A DNA stretch of 41,680 nucleotides. It comes from a virus. The translations under genes and the position numbers were made by a program. The stretch lies in the IMG/VR virus record IMGVR_UViG_3300047557_002709, positions 1 to 41,680 of that record; one strand, written 5' to 3'. Under the pieces are notes generated by a model. It did not search any database, was not told the DNA's origin, and saw only the letters and a program-made list of their open reading frames with translations. Shown here piece by piece: positions 4,097-41,115 of this stretch. Positions within the stretch are counted from its first letter, which is position 1, and the number at the start of each line of letters is the position of its first letter.

Positions 4097-4694
4097 TCTA
4101 TACGAAAACGAAAACAATTTAGTTTTATCTGGTTCAGCAGGCACAGGAAAATCATTCTTAGCATTATATCTTTCACTAAGAGAGATATTAAAAACCAATT
4201 CATATTACAACAAGATAATAATCATTCGTTCAGCGGTGCCATCCCGTGATCTTGGATTCGTTCCTGGTACATTGGAAGAAAAATCCAAGATATATCAAGA
4301 ACCGTACATGAACATTGTGAATGAATTGATTGGTCGTGGTGATGCATGGCATTTTCTCTTGAACAAAGAGATACTTGAATTTCAAACCACCAGTTTTTTG
4401 CGTGGTCTAACATTTAGAGATTGTATTATTATTTTCGATGAGTTTCAGAGTGCAACATTTCATGAAATAGATTCGGTATTGACAAGAGTTGGTGAAAATT
4501 GCCGTTTCATTTTATGTGGTGACCATGCACAGAATGATCTAAATAACAAAAAAGAAAAATCTGGTTTTGAAGATGTAATAAAAATTCTAAAGAACATAAG
4601 CAATGTCTCACATGTTCAATTTGGATTAGATGATGTTGTTCGATCCGGTTTTGTTCGTGAATACTTAATACAAAAAGAGAAAATGAAATTATAA
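3993..4694 (+). CDS. phoH: PhoH-like P-loop ATPase
   Basis: A PhoH-family cytoplasmic ATPase of 233 residues. The Walker A motif GSAGTGKS is at residues 47-54 and the Walker B segment IIIFDEFQ at about 145-152. A conserved sensor-like stretch (FILCGDHAQND) follows. PhoH proteins are widespread in T4-like phages of aquatic bacteria. Their role is unsettled: phosphate-starvation association, RNA or nucleotide metabolism and helicase-like activity have been proposed. The start ATG at 3993 has AAGGAG at 3982-3987. The stop overlaps the next ATG by one base, coupling it to the nuclease gene. Confidence 0.93.
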   Translation: MVTAKKKTAAAQAQSQHFSLKTIKPLTENQQKTFDLYENENNLVLSGSAGTGKSFLALYLSLREILKTNSYYNKIIIIRSAVPSRDLGFVPGTLEEKSKIYQEPYMNIVNELIGRGDAWHFLLNKEILEFQTTSFLRGLTFRDCIIIFDEFQSATFHEIDSVLTRVGENCRFILCGDHAQNDLNNKKEKSGFEDVIKILKNISNVSHVQFGLDDVVRSGFVREYLIQKEKMKL

Positions 4695-5356
4695 TGTTAT
4701 ACAATCATTGCCCACCATTAGAATTGCCAAACTTAGTATCAGAAACAAAACCTGATGGTAAGAGATATTATGTCACACCAAGTGGTATGAAATTACCATC
4801 AGTCACTACTGTTGTTGGTGCAAAGAAAAAACAATCAATAATGGAATGGCGCAATCGCGTTGGTGAAGCAGAAGCAAACCGCATATCTCGCATTGCTACT
4901 GGTAGAGGTAATCGCGTACATAATCTTGCAGAAAAGTATCTAAAGAACGAAAAGATAGATTGGGTCAGTGAAATGCCTGATTCTGTTATTATGTTTCGTT
5001 CTTTGATACCACACATGCAATCAATCAACAATATACACTATATTGAGCAATCAATGTGGTCAGAAAAACTAGGCATGGCTGGTCGTGTTGATTTGATTGC
5101 TGAATGGGATGGTGTATTATCTGTAATTGATTTTAAAACTTCTAAGAAGATAAAAGCAAAAGAAGATATACCAGAATACTTTGCACAATGTACCGCATAC
5201 TCTTGCATGTACGAAGAACTTGTCGGCAAACCTATCGATCAAATAGTCATTGTGATGGCCGTAGAAGATGAGAAACCATTAATATTTGTGGAAAAAACTG
5301 AAGATCATCTACACAATCTATTGGAACATATAGATTTCTACCGAAAAAACTCTTGA
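4694..5356 (+). CDS. PD-(D/E)XK exonuclease, Cas4/RecB/MGME1-like
   Basis: 220 residues of the RecB-type PD-(D/E)XK nuclease superfamily. Visible elements in order: a basic helix with RGNRVH (71-76, H76), GRVDLI (130-135, catalytic-type D133), the IDFKTS strand (145-150, D146 and K148), and the EYFAQCTAY helix (161-169) carrying the RecB-family Gln/Tyr signature. No Cas4 iron-sulfur cysteine cluster is evident, so an MGME1-like or phage-type exonuclease is more likely than true Cas4. The expected role is processing of DNA ends in phage replication or recombination. The stop TGA (5354-5356) lies inside the -35 box of the tmRNA promoter. Confidence 0.88.
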   Translation: MLYNHCPPLELPNLVSETKPDGKRYYVTPSGMKLPSVTTVVGAKKKQSIMEWRNRVGEAEANRISRIATGRGNRVHNLAEKYLKNEKIDWVSEMPDSVIMFRSLIPHMQSINNIHYIEQSMWSEKLGMAGRVDLIAEWDGVLSVIDFKTSKKIKAKEDIPEYFAQCTAYSCMYEELVGKPIDQIVIVMAVEDEKPLIFVEKTEDHLHNLLEHIDFYRKNS

Positions 5357-5381
5357 CACCTAAATAATAAATCACTATAAT
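5353..5381 (+). promoter_or_regulatory. Consensus sigma-70 promoter for the tmRNA
   Basis: A perfect -35 box TTGACA (5353-5358) and a perfect -10 box TATAAT (5376-5381), separated by 17 bases. The predicted start is about 5388, just before the tmRNA acceptor piece. The -35 box contains the stop codon of the upstream nuclease gene. A full-consensus promoter implies strong transcription by host RNA polymerase early in infection. Confidence 0.9.
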
Positions 5382-5387
5382 TATTTT

Positions 5388-5451
5388 ATGGTTGTATGAA
5401 GCAACTTGAAAAGTGTTCTGGACGTGGGTTCGACTCCCACCTGGTCCACCA
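5388..5451 (+). ncRNA. ssrA: Permuted tmRNA, acceptor (3'-type) piece
   Basis: This piece carries the tRNA-like 3' half of tmRNA, located upstream of the coding half. It has a T arm (GTGGG, loop TTCGACT, CCCAC) and an acceptor strand CTGGTCC (5441-5447) followed by A and an encoded CCA (5449-5451). The acceptor strand pairs with GGGCCAG at 5491-5497, the start of the coding piece, over 7 bp including one G-U. GTTGT (5391-5395) can pair with ACAAC (5533-5537) in the coding piece as part of the inter-piece helix H2. There is no anticodon arm, so it is not a tRNA. The 5' end is estimated from the promoter. Confidence 0.88.
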
Positions 5452-5490
5452 TAAGAGCATAAATTTACTTTGGTATTATGTTTTTATGAT

Positions 5491-5682
5491 GGGCCAGCCA
5501 TGGTTTCGACAGGGCAAAGAGTATAGAAGTGGACAACTAGGTAATGCAGAAGCCTTAAGGATGTGGGTTGTTCCCTTCCGAAGAAGCAAAACAAAGTAAA
5601 CGCAAACGATGAACGTTTCGCATTAGCAGCCTAAACACTGCTTAGGGTTTCGGTAGGTTTCCTCGTAACAGAATAACCTACC
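5491..5682 (+). ncRNA. ssrA: Permuted tmRNA, coding (5'-type) piece with tag ANDERFALAA
   Basis: It begins with the acceptor strand GGGCCAG and the conserved ATGGTTTCGAC element of tmRNA 5' ends. The tag frame runs from the resume codon GCA at 5602 to TAA at 5632-5634 and encodes ANDERFALAA, with the LAA end recognised by host proteases. The stop codon sits in a helix, CCTAA (5630-5634) with TTAGG (5642-5646), as in canonical tmRNA. A final perfect 8-bp hairpin pairs GGTAGGTT (5652-5659) with AACCTACC (5675-5682). The 39-base spacer at 5452-5490 would be removed to give a two-piece RNA. The role is ribosome rescue with SmpB. Confidence 0.9.
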
Positions 5683-5702
5683 ACAATTAAGAAAGGAAGA
5701 CA

Positions 5703-6260
5703 ATGCAAAGTAAACCAATACTTTTGAGCATAGTTTTTTCCGCATTTGTGATTTCTTTGGGTATGATAAATGTTGATCTTCATGGCTTATTGCCATTCAA
5801 AACATCTTATAACGAATTATCTAAAGATGTACAAAAACAAGTTACTTGTCTTGCGGAAAATATTTACTTTGAGGCTGCAAATGAGCCTCTAGATGGTAAA
5901 AAAGCAGTTGCTTTCGTAACCATTAATAGACTACAAACAGGAAATTATGCACACACAATTTGTGATGTGGTGTTTCAGAAAACAAATGGTACATGCCAAT
6001 TCTCTTGGTATTGTGATCCAGAAGTTTTGAGAAAACGCTTGACAATTCGTGAAACTGCATTGTATAATGAAATTCGTGAATTAGCAACGCATATGGTTGT
6101 TAATTACGAACGCATGAAAGATGTTACTCATGGAGCGACATACTATCATGCAGACTATGTGAATCCTGGTTGGAAGTTAAGAAAAGTGGATCAAATTGGT
6201 CGACACATTTTTTACAAGAGCAACAAGGATAATATTGACAGAAACAAGGAGATTATATGA
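5703..6260 (+). CDS. SleB-type cell-wall hydrolase with N-terminal membrane/signal segment
   Basis: A peptidoglycan hydrolase of the SleB/Hydrolase_2 family. Residues 1-26 form a hydrophobic signal or signal-anchor segment. The catalytic domain starts at about residue 45 with LAENIYFEAANEP (E52 and E57, the likely catalytic glutamate region), then KKAVAFVTINR, and ends near ATYYHADYVNPGW. With its membrane segment it could act as an endolysin exported by the host Sec system or as a signal-arrest-release endolysin. The start has a good upstream AAGGA (5694-5698). It overlaps the next gene, which encodes a small membrane protein, by 4 bases, which suggests a lysis module. It is probably co-transcribed with the tmRNA because no terminator is evident between them. 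Confidence 0.87.
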   Translation: MQSKPILLSIVFSAFVISLGMINVDLHGLLPFKTSYNELSKDVQKQVTCLAENIYFEAANEPLDGKKAVAFVTINRLQTGNYAHTICDVVFQKTNGTCQFSWYCDPEVLRKRLTIRETALYNEIRELATHMVVNYERMKDVTHGATYYHADYVNPGWKLRKVDQIGRHIFYKSNKDNIDRNKEII

Positions 6261-6490
6261 GCGAAACTAGGAAAAATACTGAATTGATTACTGTAATTGT
6301 GTGTATTACAATTGCAGTCTGTTCAGTAATCATCGGTGGATTTTTATATAACATCAATGATCGGAACAATATGTCTAAAAACATTGACGCTGCAATTCAA
6401 AAAGGTGTTGATCCACTTTCTGTTAAGTGTTCATATGAAACAACACCAACTTCAACATGCATTGCATATGCCATGGCGGTGAAAAAATAA
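6257..6490 (+). CDS. Small single-span membrane protein next to the hydrolase
   Basis: 77 residues with a short polar N-terminus, one hydrophobic segment (about residues 10-32) and a C-terminal domain of about 45 residues holding two cysteines. If the N-terminus is cytoplasmic, the C-terminal part faces the periplasm, where the cysteines could form a disulfide. Adjacency and overlap (ATGA) with the cell-wall hydrolase make a lysis role (pinholin or spanin-like) plausible, but there is no family evidence for it. Confidence 0.7.
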   Translation: MSETRKNTELITVIVCITIAVCSVIIGGFLYNINDRNNMSKNIDAAIQKGVDPLSVKCSYETTPTSTCIAYAMAVKK

Positions 6491-6711
6491 TGCCTACCAA
6501 AAATGAAATTGCTGAATTTAGTGAAATGGTCGATGTTCTCTCAAAGGAGATGAAGTGTTCTAGAATGGACGCAATCATCTATCATTGTGAAACTGTTGGT
6601 ATGGAAATTGATGTTGCTTCTTCATTGATTTCTCCTGCACTAAAATCAAAAATACGCGAAGAAGCTCAAGAATTAAATCTATTGAAAAAGACAGCAAAAT
6701 TGCCTTTATGA
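6490..6711 (+). CDS. 33: Late-transcription co-activator, T4 gp33-like
   Basis: 73 residues, starting at the ATG that overlaps the previous stop (TAATG). An upstream in-frame extension to 6457 is unlikely. The stretch FSEMVDVLSKEMKCSRMDA followed by SPALKSKIREEAQELNLL matches the T4 gp33 core in residue pattern and spacing. In T4, gp33 bridges RNA polymerase and the sliding clamp to activate late promoters. The T4 protein is longer (112 aa) and ends with a hydrophobic clamp-binding motif; this one ends in KLPL, which may play the same part. The following gp59 and gp32 genes reproduce the T4 33-59-32 cluster and strengthen the call. Confidence 0.82.
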   Translation: MPTKNEIAEFSEMVDVLSKEMKCSRMDAIIYHCETVGMEIDVASSLISPALKSKIREEAQELNLLKKTAKLPL

Positions 6712-7322
6712 TTATTGAAGAAGGATCTGGTTTCTCCGCATACGCACTCTTTAATGCCATTAAACTTCATTTTACTACTGATTCTTATAGTTTTTTTAAG
6801 TACAACGGTAAAACCAATGTTACCAAGGAACAATTCGCTGTACGGAAAGACAAATACAGTTTCTACAAATTATCCAGAAAATACAGTATAGCTGACTTGA
6901 AAAATTTCTTTATTGCAAATTTTATAGTCAAAGATTTTTCTTGGGTTGGTGAAATTGCAAATGAAGAAGGTGAAGATAATTACAGAAAGTGGCAAAAGAG
7001 AAATCAGAGCTTGACATATGTGTTTCAACAAGATATACTCCATCTTATGGATAGTGTGAATACACCAGATGATTTACTCAAAGTAAAATCTGGTCAACAT
7101 CCTAATTTGTTGATTCAAACGATGCAAGGTGAAATTGCAATTGAAACTTTGGTGATACTAAACGATATTATGAATTTCTTTCCTATGTGGAACAAAAAAA
7201 TATCTGACGATATTGTTTGGCCTACTTACAAAAGAAAATGTGAAAAGTACTCACCTTTTTTATTCTATGATAAGTCTAAATTTAAATCTATTTTAAAGGA
7301 AAACTTACATGAAAAAGTTTGA
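6708..7322 (+). CDS. 59: DNA helicase loader, T4 gp59-like
   Basis: 204 residues, close to the T4 protein (217). Shared features are the N-terminal Gly/Phe-rich turn and helix, then a basic RKDKYSFYKLSRKYS segment that mirrors RRDKYFFQKLSEKY in T4. A hydrophobic FFIANFIV helix and W-x-G-[DE]-I follow, and later an FxTLVILNDIMNF-type helix. gp59 binds forked DNA and gp32 and loads the gp41 helicase during replication and recombination. It overlaps gp33 by 4 bases. The gp32 promoter starts immediately after its stop. Confidence 0.9.
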   Translation: MIIEEGSGFSAYALFNAIKLHFTTDSYSFFKYNGKTNVTKEQFAVRKDKYSFYKLSRKYSIADLKNFFIANFIVKDFSWVGEIANEEGEDNYRKWQKRNQSLTYVFQQDILHLMDSVNTPDDLLKVKSGQHPNLLIQTMQGEIAIETLVILNDIMNFFPMWNKKISDDIVWPTYKRKCEKYSPFLFYDKSKFKSILKENLHEKV

Positions 7323-7323
7323 T

Positions 7324-7352
7324 TTGACATGACCTATATACTAGTATATAAT
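7324..7352 (+). promoter_or_regulatory. Consensus sigma-70 promoter for gp32
   Basis: TTGACA (7324-7329), a 17-base spacer, then TATAAT (7347-7352). The predicted start is at about 7359, leaving a leader of roughly 45 bases before the gp32 ATG at 7404. A perfect match in both boxes is consistent with the high expression that gp32 needs. The leader is also where T4 gp32 regulates its own translation, but I see no clear pseudoknot here. Confidence 0.85.
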
Positions 7353-7403: not shown

Positions 7404-8291
7404 ATGGTTGATTTTTCAAAACTTAAAACACAGTCTGGTAATCTAGACAAGCTTGCAAAAGCAATCGAAGCACTCAATACTACTGAGGGAGCTTCTGACA
7501 AAGAAAACTTCTGGAAACCAGAAGTAGACAAAGCAGGTAACGGCATGGCAACAATTCGATTCCTACCTGCGCCACCACAAGATGGTGATGATGGCCTTCC
7601 CTGGGTTAAAATCTTCTCACACGGGTTTCAAGGACCAGGCGGATGGCTTATTGATAATTGCTTGACTACCAAGAACCAACAATGTCCTGTTTGTGAGCAC
7701 AACAACAAACTTTGGAATTCTGGTATCGAAGCAAATAAAGAAGTTGCTCGTAAACAAAAACGCAAATTGAATTACATTGCAAACATCTACATTGTCAATG
7801 ATCCAAAACATCCAGAGAACAATGGTACTGTTCGTTTGTTTAGATTCGGTGCAAAAATCTTTGATAAGATTACCGAAGCAATGAATCCTCAATTCGAAGA
7901 TGAAACACCTATCAATCCTTTTGATCTGTGGAAAGGTGCAAACTTCAAGTTGAAGATCACCAAAGTTGCTGGCTATCAGAACTATGATAAATCTGAATTT
8001 GAAAGCCCATCAGCACTTTCAAATGATGATGAAGAACTTGAAAAGATTTGGAAATCTGAACACTCTTTGTCCAATTTCCTAACTGACAAAGAATTCAAAT
8101 CATATGACACACTGAAAGCAAGGCTCGACAAAGTTCTTGGACTAAGTGATGAATCAGCACCAGTTAAAACTACTGTTGAACAAATGAAATCATCACCAGC
8201 ACCAAAGCGGAATGTCATCGAAGACAATGATGTGATGGATAATGTTGAGGAAGATGATCTAGCTTATTTTGCCAAATTGGCAGATGATTAA
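7404..8291 (+). CDS. 32: Single-stranded DNA-binding protein, T4 gp32
   Basis: 295 residues (T4: 301). The basic N-terminal part resembles the cooperativity domain. The zinc site is complete: H73, C86, C94 and C97, spaced H-X12-C-X7-C-X2-C, close to T4. The OB-fold core is rich in aromatic and basic residues. The C-terminus is strongly acidic (NVEEDDLAYF...), as expected for the tail that binds other replication proteins. It coats single-stranded DNA in replication, recombination and repair. It has its own promoter and ends at a strong terminator. AAAGG at 7388-7392 is the likely ribosome-binding site. Confidence 0.95.
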   Translation: MVDFSKLKTQSGNLDKLAKAIEALNTTEGASDKENFWKPEVDKAGNGMATIRFLPAPPQDGDDGLPWVKIFSHGFQGPGGWLIDNCLTTKNQQCPVCEHNNKLWNSGIEANKEVARKQKRKLNYIANIYIVNDPKHPENNGTVRLFRFGAKIFDKITEAMNPQFEDETPINPFDLWKGANFKLKITKVAGYQNYDKSEFESPSALSNDDEELEKIWKSEHSLSNFLTDKEFKSYDTLKARLDKVLGLSDESAPVKTTVEQMKSSPAPKRNVIEDNDVMDNVEEDDLAYFAKLADD

Positions 8292-39105: not shown

Positions 39106-39125
39106 AAAAAGCGATTTTACTTTTA
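39106..39125 (+). repeat. 20-bp intergenic repeat, copy 2
   Basis: Identical to 20040-20059. Its last base is the A of the cupin-like gene's ATG (39125). Copy 1 lies upstream of the late promoter of gp25; copy 2 has no TATAAATA after it. A shared upstream element for late transcription, or a recombination footprint, are both possible. Confidence 0.7.
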
Positions 39126-39547
39126 TGAATTTTGATTTTTTATATAATGGTAACTTAGCAATGATCATTGACAATCATGGCCGAGATCATATTATAAATT
39201 TCGATTTAGTCGATTACTATATAGCAGAAGAAAAATACACAGTCAAGGTTGAAGGTTTGGAAGAATATTTCTCTGAATACCTACCAAACACTGTTCATTG
39301 TTATATTTCTCCAAAAAATGCGAAAAGTTTTCCAGAACATTTAGACCCAATTGATGTTAAAATTGTCTGTATTGATGGAACAAAAACTTTAAAAGTAAAA
39401 AACGAAAACGTGATTTTGAAAAAAGGTGAAAGTATTTTGATACCTGCAAATACTTCACATCAAGCAACAAATCATTATGATTCAATAATTTTATCTATTG
39501 GTTATGAAAGAACTACTGATTTACTTAAAAACAACAGAAACCTGTAA
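39125..39547 (+). CDS. Cupin-like protein at the head of the radical SAM cassette
   Basis: 140 residues. The second half has the small-barrel pattern of cupins: LKVKNENVILKKGESILIPANTSHQATN, with the turn GESILIPANTSHQ matching the second cupin motif (Gly-x5-Pro-x-x-x-x-His). The usual first metal-binding motif (HxH...E) is not evident, so it may be non-enzymatic or bind a peptide. The 3' end overlaps the radical SAM frame by 44 bases, so expression is linked. In modification clusters such a protein could carry or recognise the substrate. Confidence 0.7.
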   Translation: MNFDFLYNGNLAMIIDNHGRDHIINFDLVDYYIAEEKYTVKVEGLEEYFSEYLPNTVHCYISPKNAKSFPEHLDPIDVKIVCIDGTKTLKVKNENVILKKGESILIPANTSHQATNHYDSIILSIGYERTTDLLKNNRNL

Positions 39548-40562
39548 TTTAAATTGTAAACATTGTTTTACAAATGGTAGTAATGGATCCAAAATATATT
39601 GGAATCACGTAAAAGTTGCAGATTGGTTAAAAAGATTAAATAAAGAAATGCCAAGTGCGCCACACGTACATTTGGAATTTCATGGAGGAGAACCTTTTCT
39701 AGCAGATATCGAAACACTACAATATGTTTATGATAACTGCCAAAATTTATGGAAAAGCCAGAGTTGGGGTATCACAACCAATCTAACATTCAAACTCGAC
39801 CAAGAAAAAATCGACTTCATTATGGGTCCATTAGGTGGCAGAGTCGGCACTAGTTGGGATCCAGATATTCGATTTGCAAACCCAAAACAATATGATTTGT
39901 GGAGAAAAAATGTACAAACACTGATTGATTTGGGTGTTGTTGTCAAATTATTCATTAGTGTAACAAAAGGTACAATTGAGATTGAACCCATAGAACTACT
40001 TGAATGGGTCAGATCACTTGGTGTCAAAGAATTAGCACTAGAACGATTAACAATGAATGGTAGTGCAAAACAAAACTTGCACATATTTCCCACAAACATT
40101 GAACAAGACCAATGGTTTTTAAAAATGCATCAACAGAGTGAAGAACATGGTGCGAGAGACTGGTTCGACAACGAATTTTTAGAAACAATATATTCAAAAT
40201 TTGAAAAAAATTTCAATGCTGGTGGTACTTTTTGTAGAGATTGTGAAGAAAAATTATTCACATTAAATGCAGATGGAACTATATCTGGATGTCCAAATTC
40301 TGCACCAGAATTTCAATTTGGAAAAATAGATGACACCATAGAAACTCTTATAAATAGTCCAACTAGAATTGAAAATATTGCATGTGAAAGGTCTAGAGAT
40401 CCTAGATGTTATTCTTGTGATGTTTTTGAATATTGCGGTGGAGACTGCCATCAACTTGAATGGGAAGAAAACGTGTGTGGTGCACCAAAAAGTTTGATGA
40501 AGTTTTTAAAATATAGTCAAAAAAGAAAAGTATGGATGATAAAAGATGGCAACATTAACTAG
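39504..40562 (+). CDS. Radical SAM/SPASM peptide-modifying enzyme
   Basis: 352 residues, with the start at the ATG at 39504 (an upstream TTG at 39498 is less likely). The radical SAM cluster motif C14-X3-C18-X2-C21 (TCNLNCKHC) is followed by HLEFHGGEPF (GGEP 61-64). The C-terminal SPASM domain is complete: C247 and C263 with G258-x4-C263, then C302-x2-C305-x5-C311-x3-C315-x9-C325. C244 and C294 are extra cysteines. SPASM enzymes bind auxiliary 4Fe-4S clusters and modify peptides (for example thioether or carbon-carbon links, or formylglycine formation). It overlaps both neighbours, the cupin-like gene before and the Cys-His-Ser protein after (17 bases), so that protein is the obvious substrate. 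Confidence 0.93.
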   Translation: MKELLIYLKTTETCNLNCKHCFTNGSNGSKIYWNHVKVADWLKRLNKEMPSAPHVHLEFHGGEPFLADIETLQYVYDNCQNLWKSQSWGITTNLTFKLDQEKIDFIMGPLGGRVGTSWDPDIRFANPKQYDLWRKNVQTLIDLGVVVKLFISVTKGTIEIEPIELLEWVRSLGVKELALERLTMNGSAKQNLHIFPTNIEQDQWFLKMHQQSEEHGARDWFDNEFLETIYSKFEKNFNAGGTFCRDCEEKLFTLNADGTISGCPNSAPEFQFGKIDDTIETLINSPTRIENIACERSRDPRCYSCDVFEYCGGDCHQLEWEENVCGAPKSLMKFLKYSQKRKVWMIKDGNIN

Positions 40563-41115
40563 TCCTGTAAGAACACAAAATATTGTCGATAGATTTGCTG
40601 ATTATGTAACAGCAACAGCAGCTTCGGGAATTTCTTGGGGAACAAACGCCAAGCCATTTGCTGAAATGCCCGATTCAACTTTTGGTGGCACAACCAGTGG
40701 AAGATCAATAGGCATATCAGGAGGTAATATTGGTTCTGGATTAATTACAGCATCAAATATTTACAACACACTTGTAAATGAAACTACACAATATACATCA
40801 ATTAGAAACCTGCGCGCAATACTAAATGTACTAGGTGACGGCGGCAATCTTGGTACACGTCCAGGTCAATTAGGTTATATTTACGATCAGACGGCCGTTG
40901 CATATATGAATACAAATTATCTTCAAAGTATTGGTTCACCAGGAAATGCCGGCGTGGCTTCTGGAAATGTAATCTCTACTGTAAATTTAGAATCATTTTT
41001 TAATACACTTAGAAATTCATATAATAGTGCAAGAGCAACCACAGCAACAGTCCAAGTTGATGTTTGTCACTCATCTTGTCACTCAGCATGTCACAGTTCC
41101 AGATCCAGGAGATAA
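40546..41115 (+). CDS. Probable substrate with C-terminal Cys-His-Ser repeats
   Basis: 189 residues. The first 170 are Gly/Ser/Thr/Asn-rich and look like a small virion domain: SIRNLRAILNVLGDGG and TVNLESFFNTLRNSYN helices, with no cysteine. The C-terminus is VDVCHSSCHSACHSSRSRR: three Cys-His-Ser-x units (C174, C178, C182) followed by a basic tail. These are the only cysteines in the protein. Overlap with the radical SAM gene, terminal position and repeated motif make it a strong candidate substrate, resembling in logic (not in demonstrated homology) His-Xaa-Ser and other repeat-bearing precursors. The basic tail may be a recognition or retained anchor. It is unlike a short leader-core precursor because its N-terminal domain is large. 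Confidence 0.85.
   Translation: MATLTSPVRTQNIVDRFADYVTATAASGISWGTNAKPFAEMPDSTFGGTTSGRSIGISGGNIGSGLITASNIYNTLVNETTQYTSIRNLRAILNVLGDGGNLGTRPGQLGYIYDQTAVAYMNTNYLQSIGSPGNAGVASGNVISTVNLESFFNTLRNSYNSARATTATVQVDVCHSSCHSACHSSRSRR

Follow-up and report, generated by a model that had tools for sequence, protein, structure and literature searches.

Permuted, two-piece tmRNAs of marine T4-like phages are already known and have been in print since 2022 (PMC9004378); in the excerpted text of that paper, by Buchholz et al. (2022), 53 of the 133 unique phage tmRNAs are two-piece molecules. The locus described here lies in the window, our term for the whole stretch of DNA analysed, which at 41,680 bases is an entire IMG/VR record and a fragment of a genome. 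An earlier note on this DNA had called a permuted copy in a T4-like phage uncommon, a rarity contradicted by that published count, by phage Melnitz, published in 2022, and by dozens more copies found here. That a phage of T4-like kind carries the gene was borne out by its T4 core genes and by Rfam.

The ssrA gene of Methylophilales phage Melnitz (EXVC044M; MZ577097) resembles that of the window in being permuted and two-piece, in belonging to a T4-like phage and in occupying the same genomic slot, and it too has an upstream promoter according to the excerpts of PMC9004378. It differs in being of alpha type, with the tag ANDNYVPVDYALAA and a 142-nt intervening sequence that contains a 54-codon ORF. 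Similarly, phage HTVC008M (KC465899, L441 3658-3999) has a permuted tmRNA in this slot, but one that is alpha-type (83.8 bits), tagged ANFNEYALAA and unannotated. In close relatives of Melnitz a glutamine riboswitch directly follows the tmRNA, whereas Rfam finds none in the window.

The permuted tmRNAs of betaproteobacteria (RF01850; Rhodocyclales) share with the window their gene order, the tag ANDERFALAA, the G3·U70 pair and the model match. However, the terminal hairpin of the beta model is absent from the window copy, the intervening sequence of the window (39 nt) exceeds the bacterial median, and its acceptor reads GGGCCAG where bacterial beta copies mostly have GGGGGTG. A further parallel concerns tmRNA genes with group I introns and LAGLIDADG endonucleases (PMC11915505, in part), which, like 14 relatives of the window locus, have an endonuclease gene in a part of the precursor that is removed. 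In that case a group I intron lies in the T loop, whereas the 14 relatives are intronless, with an HNH gene in the permuted intervening sequence, and the window has no insert. The new elements are, most importantly, the protein-coding intervening sequences of the relatives, and besides these the lineage of beta type, the slot held in common and the gene of HTVC008M that its record leaves unannotated.

The tmRNA gene of the window

The window has a permuted, two-piece tmRNA gene at 5353-5689 on the plus strand, recognised by both ARAGORN and Rfam; the earlier note had proposed it at 5353-5682. ARAGORN called a permuted tmRNA at 5359-5725 (+) with the tag ANDERFALAA, and two Rfam models exceeded their cut-offs: beta_tmRNA (RF01850) with 122.4 bits over 5339-5689 (cut-off 84) and tmRNA_permuted (RF04321) with 120.8 bits over 5390-5634 (cut-off 47). 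The alpha and cyano models scored 57.2 and 44.7 bits, which places the gene in the beta subtype.

Direct reading of the plus strand puts the tRNA-like 3' half first and the 5' half downstream. The 3' piece (5390-5451, also delimited by Rfam) opens with the P2 strand GGTTGT and contains the T arm GTGGG-TTCGACT-CCCAC (5424-5440), the acceptor strand CTGGTCC (5441-5447) and the discriminator A (5448), followed by an encoded CCA (5449-5451). It is separated by a 39-nt intervening sequence (5452-5490), which is predicted to form a hairpin extending the acceptor stem, is presumably removed at maturation and contains no ORF, from the mRNA-like 5' piece (5491-5689). This second piece starts with the acceptor strand GGGCCAG (5491-5497), carries the GGTTTCGAC motif and extends to approximately 5689, the end of the beta_tmRNA match. 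The tag frame called by ARAGORN (5602-5634) runs from the resume codon GCA to a last GCC codon and TAA, and encodes ANDERFALAA, with the hydrophobic-Ala-Ala end.

The two acceptor strands are complementary at 7/7 positions, the third pair being a G·U (G3·U70), the identity pair of AlaRS. GTTGT at 5391-5395 faces ACAAC at 5533-5537, and the two pair in the window to form the P2a helix. In the RF04321 structure 29 of 31 pairs are standard in the window sequence, and the predicted fold of the precursor surpasses those of 199 of 200 shuffled sequences (z -2.92). The order of the halves, the acceptor strands, the CCA and the tag, the seven pairs with one G-U and the GTTGT/ACAAC complementarity had all been claimed beforehand and were all found on direct reading, and the covariance-model check that had been proposed supports the acceptor helix between the pieces. 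Based on these data, we consider the gene very probably a bona fide phage ssrA, permuted and beta-like.

Fully paired acceptors (7/7, G·U third) were found in 164 distinct permuted sequences, comprising the window, 76 viral contigs and 4 phage isolates among the viral matches listed, and 83 bacterial sequences; the phage sequences in this and the following counts are related to each other and so are not independent events. The finder picked the best-pairing frame, which makes a counter-test with re-dealt strands important: full pairing was seen in 81/81 distinct phage sequences among the viral matches listed, compared with 28.3% when the 3' strands were dealt anew. Since the viral copies among the matches listed contain 14 different acceptor stems, the two strands of the helix, which end up in separate molecules, covary. 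Six of 208 ARAGORN genes (L117, L121, L174, L179, L140 and L324) were dropped from this analysis; inspected by eye, L121 has 7/7 pairing (GGGGATG/CATCTCC); the finder passed over it on account of its loop, TTTGAC. The ends of the intervening sequence are complementary over 11 bp (median) in the phage set among the matches listed, compared with 5 bp in shuffles. The tag ends in LAA in 77 of the 81 phage sequences from the viral matches listed, the others ending in MVA, MAA, IAA or AAA, and among phage sequences whose tags start with AN the resume codon is preceded by T at -5 in 106/109 and by A at -4 in 109/109. The P2a helix across phages is less clear, with 81.9% paired in beta-type phages and 67.3% when dealt anew, in an imperfect alignment.

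Just upstream of the tmRNA, an exact sigma-70 consensus promoter, TTGACA-17-TATAAT, lies at 5353-5381 (+), exactly as the earlier note had read it, and its TTGACA shares bases with the exonuclease stop codon. The window contains three exact TTGACA/TATAAT sites, compared with 0.14 expected (spacer 15-19), all on the plus strand; the other two, with spacers of 17 or 18, are at 6039-6068, within the endolysin ORF, and at 7324-7352, before gp32. A late promoter was rejected as a candidate: neither CTAAATA (at 5360) nor TATAAATA occurs more often in the window than expected (3 vs 9.6 and 2 vs 4.5 expected, respectively). Among the viral matches listed, promoters with 11-12 of 12 matches lie directly upstream of 21/81 phage tmRNAs and of none of the shuffles; the remaining 60 are weaker, and 56 of these are no better than shuffles. 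In beta-type phages, 8 of 83 copies have a terminator 20-170 nt past the tag; none was found in that interval in the window, so the transcript probably continues into endolysin-gp33-gp59.

Position in the phage genome

The window encodes the T4 core proteins gp32, gp59, gp33 and the gp6 baseplate wedge, indicating a T4-like (Kyanoviridae-related) phage, and its gp6 is closest, at ~39%, to those of the Pelagibacter phages Mosig and HTVC008M and of Melnitz. The order around the tmRNA is PhoH; a PD-(D/E)XK exonuclease (phrog_298; 4694-5356, +), which is the upstream flank of the slot; the tmRNA; a cell-wall hydrolase or endolysin (PF07486, phrog_938; 5703-6260, +) as downstream neighbour; a gp33-like late-promoter coactivator (phrog_254; 6457-6711, +) and the gp59 helicase loader (6708-7322, +), which form the downstream flank; and the gp32 single-strand DNA-binding protein (7404-8291, +).

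The slot exonuclease-[tmRNA]-gp33-gp59 is common to the window, Melnitz, HTVC008M and dozens of viral contigs, in viral samples that are biased, one having been chosen by tag and one centred on Melnitz. The 115 tag-pattern contigs among the matches listed comprised 88 permuted genes, 8 one-piece genes and 19 that were neither by the tools applied. For these tag-found permuted loci, again among the matches listed, 14 of 17 with two long flanks lay in the exonuclease-gp33/gp59 slot; where the upstream flank alone was long, the exonuclease was present in 29 of 38, and where the downstream flank alone was long, gp33/gp59 were present in 15 of 18. Flanks in the other 15/88 were too short for assignment. 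Searching with the Melnitz exonuclease, and including HTVC008M, yielded 62 Melnitz-like loci that reach gp33/gp59; five of these (L426, L427, L429, L438 and L440) stood outside covariance-model testing, and of the 57 tested a slot tmRNA was present in 52 and absent from 5. Complete slots without a tmRNA are those of L425, L428, L430, L431 and L436 among Melnitz-like loci and of L014 and L022 among window-like loci, which indicates that the gene is dispensable. The slot tmRNA is thus common yet dispensable.

Several other features of these genomes were observed. A glutamine riboswitch has been reported as controlling the Melnitz tmRNA; in our loci it begins 0-8 nt past the tmRNA end and ahead of gp33 (L361 3349-3822, L392, L399, L406, L412 and others), a position more like that of a leader of the downstream gene than of a tmRNA control. 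In some Melnitz-type slots a tRNA gene starts 4 nt past the tmRNA (L374 4837-4911, L383, L385, L410), and in the tmRNA-less relatives L425, L428, L430 and L431 a tRNA occupies the slot. Unannotated permuted tmRNAs were also seen in Alcaligenes phage QDWS595 (Schitoviridae; OK149171, L296 2953-3329), with the tag ANDNVYAAAA, and in Synechococcus phage BUCT-ZZ01 (ON615601, L294 2973-3391), with the tag ANDETFSMALAA; the latter gene scores with the beta model (94.5), not with the cyano model. Elsewhere, at 39125-41115, the window encodes a cupin, a radical SAM/SPASM enzyme and a small protein whose sequence ends in CHSSCHSACHSSRSRR, a combination that resembles a phage-borne set for peptide maturation (RiPP-like).

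Subtype, origin and proposed function

In contrast to the window gene, the Melnitz tmRNA scores 106.7 bits with the alpha model and 25 with the beta model, and the Melnitz/HTVC008M-like copies are alpha-type in 37/37 tested (20 + 15 + L441 + Melnitz). Window-like copies are for the most part of beta type: the beta cut-off was passed by 26 of 29 copies, those below it being Melnitz, L035 and L036; in another comparison the beta model was best in 14 of 17 loci (exceptions L441, L077 and L116), and among ten window-like loci with a subtype call, eight were beta and two alpha (L004, L082). A tree of exonuclease plus gp59 was built from 41 thinned loci of 110, with 11 of no known tmRNA state excluded. 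In it the alpha carriers form one clade, together with one tmRNA-less row, within beta-carrying diversity, and three state changes suffice to explain the pattern, in what is a quick tree with a midpoint root and biased sampling. The simplest reading is that one tmRNA type has been replaced by the other within the slot.

It is possible, though we lean against it, that the contrast between Melnitz-like and window-like copies instead reflects drift of model scores within one phage lineage, with no replacement. The window-like phages L004, L077, L082 and L116 have slot copies that score better with the alpha model, L035 has 64.0 bits with alpha and 60.9 with beta, and the AU test allows all phage copies to form one clade (p-AU 0.058); the mixed scorers thus leave room for drift beside replacement. 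Nevertheless, a branch with 100/100 support divides Melnitz-type from window-type copies in the tmRNA trees, and every Melnitz/HTVC008M-like copy tested is of alpha type. As to the source of the gene, the earlier note had suggested capture from a betaproteobacterial host, which is partly supported: the beta model scores best, and Rhodocyclales, found unprompted with a T-arm pattern, share both ANDERFALAA and the permuted form, as a capture would predict. The same tag is, however, also carried by one-piece betaproteobacterial tmRNAs (L452, L461, L462). The T-arm pattern biases the bacterial set towards Rhodocyclales and one-piece Chlorobi/Bacteroidota, and genomes scanned with a codon pattern for ANDERFALAA (ACG/CGN context at the Arg codon, as in the window) gave no matches. 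A recent capture from a present betaproteobacterial host seems quite unlikely, as the nearest phage tmRNA is 82% identical to that of the window and the nearest bacterial permuted tmRNA only 66%, very diverged phages keep the gene in the same slot, and in the sampled order, that of the Azospira genome, the permuted cut-off was passed by 16/300 sampled genomes (13 of them with at least 120 bits) and the one-piece cut-off by 35/41. Use of the slot by related phages probably reflects inheritance within the phage lineage, and no recent capture.

The tmRNA trees were built from 131 and 153 thinned rows, with L313 omitted from the former and L313, L310, L461, L468, L469 and L485 from the latter; 8 of 270 rows had been dropped from the alignment set, including L441, L437 and L439. 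One-piece beta copies and viral one-piece copies form their own clade (100/93), permuted bacterial beta copies and 8 phage rows share a clade (95/95) that excludes the one-piece betas of the same order, and the window sits in a phage-only set of 16 (98/99). Bacterial beta copies are thus placed near or within phage diversity, by an alignment whose 182 columns are too few to give the direction of transfer. In AU tests, grouping bacterial permuted and one-piece copies together gave p 0.048, bacterial permuted copies alone 0.254 and beta-type phage copies alone 0.097, beside the value given above for all phage copies. Because the bacterial copies group with those of phages and not with one-piece betaproteobacterial tmRNAs, the two-piece tmRNA of betaproteobacteria might have been acquired from phages, an idea we regard as rather doubtful.

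For the function of the gene, where the earlier note had raised a possible takeover of ribosome rescue, we propose that an early sigma-70 transcript would begin just ahead of GGTTGT, that host RNase P and 3'-end enzymes would excise the 39-nt intervening hairpin, and that the two pieces would remain paired. The 3' piece may then be charged by host AlaRS via G3·U70 and brought by host SmpB to stalled ribosomes, where nascent chains would receive ANDERFALAA, with its LAA end, and be released for host proteases such as ClpXP. The phage would benefit by recycling ribosomes stalled on mRNAs broken in the takeover. SmpB was found in 0/16 phage records, ten of them longer than 100 kb, in a search whose control was detected in 10/14 genomes, and tagging would therefore need host SmpB; as a 41.7-kb fragment, the window may come from a genome that encodes SmpB elsewhere. 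Alternatively, the gene might be a remnant or decoy whose tRNA-like part ties up SmpB or AlaRS of the host, thereby inhibiting its trans-translation, an effect reported, in the excerpted texts of PMC4131195 and PMC11915505, for a tag-less molecule of mycobacteriophage DS6A. A decoy would not need a tag frame, a stop, a resume context and an LAA end (the latter in 77/81, as noted above), and their retention across deep divergence makes this alternative very improbable.

Protein genes in intervening sequences and their meaning

The intervening sequences of phage copies have a median of 82.5 nt and a maximum of 194 nt (ARAGORN genes, viral matches listed), and those of the sampled bacteria a median of 24 nt and a maximum of 47 nt. 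Where the intervening sequence is at least 90 nt, an ORF of at least 28 codons after a Shine-Dalgarno-like motif is present in 33/38 Melnitz-type and 12/34 window-type loci, many of which are near-copies, and in 9.0% of shuffles. One family of these ORFs (9 sequences) has a pN/pS of 0.35 (0.21-0.52) in frame, compared with 0.94 and 0.97 in the other frames, and a second (7 sequences) has 0.36 (0.23-0.56), compared with 0.87 and 1.69; the bootstrap intervals of the in-frame and +1 values are disjoint in the first family and partly overlapping in the second. These two diversified families are under purifying selection. The intervening ORF of Melnitz has no relatives elsewhere in the phage collection. 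Small unannotated ORFs with a pN/pS of ~0.35 were observed in the Melnitz-type intervening sequences of L360 (3078-3260) and its relatives L361-L420, and several Melnitz-type ORFs extend 42 nt into the 5' half.

A different kind of gene was found in L026 (5214-5920), and also in L487-L499: an HNH-endonuclease ORF inside the intervening sequence. In L026 it has 152 codons and matches PF01844 (E 7.7e-4, just under the curated cut-off), is flanked by intact tmRNA halves and belongs to a family that resembles annotated homing endonucleases of T4-like phages. Among 80 viral-contig relatives of this ORF, 14 (on 14 contigs, with 6 distinct ORFs) lie within the intervening sequence of a permuted tmRNA, as judged by a rule that itself demanded seven pairs and G3·U70 and that 0/3,824 random stretches passed. 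As independent evidence, matches to RF04321 extend across the insert and exceed the model's cut-off in L490-L495 and L498 (55.1-62.5 bits), but fall slightly short of it in L499 (46.0 bits) and L026 (42.8 bits). The stop codon of the ORF ends one base ahead of the acceptor, the mature 5' end, in four of the six types. Several metagenomes contain the arrangement, as do contigs as long as 161 and 174 kb, making an assembly accident unlikely. The largest tmRNA database paper (PMC11915505) describes, in its excerpted text, endonucleases in group I introns and, within intervening sequences, a single tRNA gene and a single repeat; no published report of a protein gene in a tmRNA intervening sequence was found in open-licence PMC text. 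Based on these data, the intervening sequence of permuted phage tmRNAs is probably a protein-coding niche, used by unrelated small genes and by at least six types of HNH homing endonuclease.

In many aquatic T4-like phages the two-piece tmRNA gene has a constant location within the block of core replication and late-transcription genes, and because of this position ribosome rescue seems to belong to the regular functions of a phage, although it is dispensable. This role is testable in an isolated phage, Melnitz on H5P1, and the occurrence of alpha or beta copies in one slot makes the exchange of host-type tmRNAs testable as well. The gene-bearing relatives suggest that no intron is needed for a protein gene or a mobile endonuclease to reside in a processed RNA gene. 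If this is true, the permuted tmRNA would be a safe harbour of the kind an intron provides, though none is present, and the tmRNA precursor would double as a messenger RNA.
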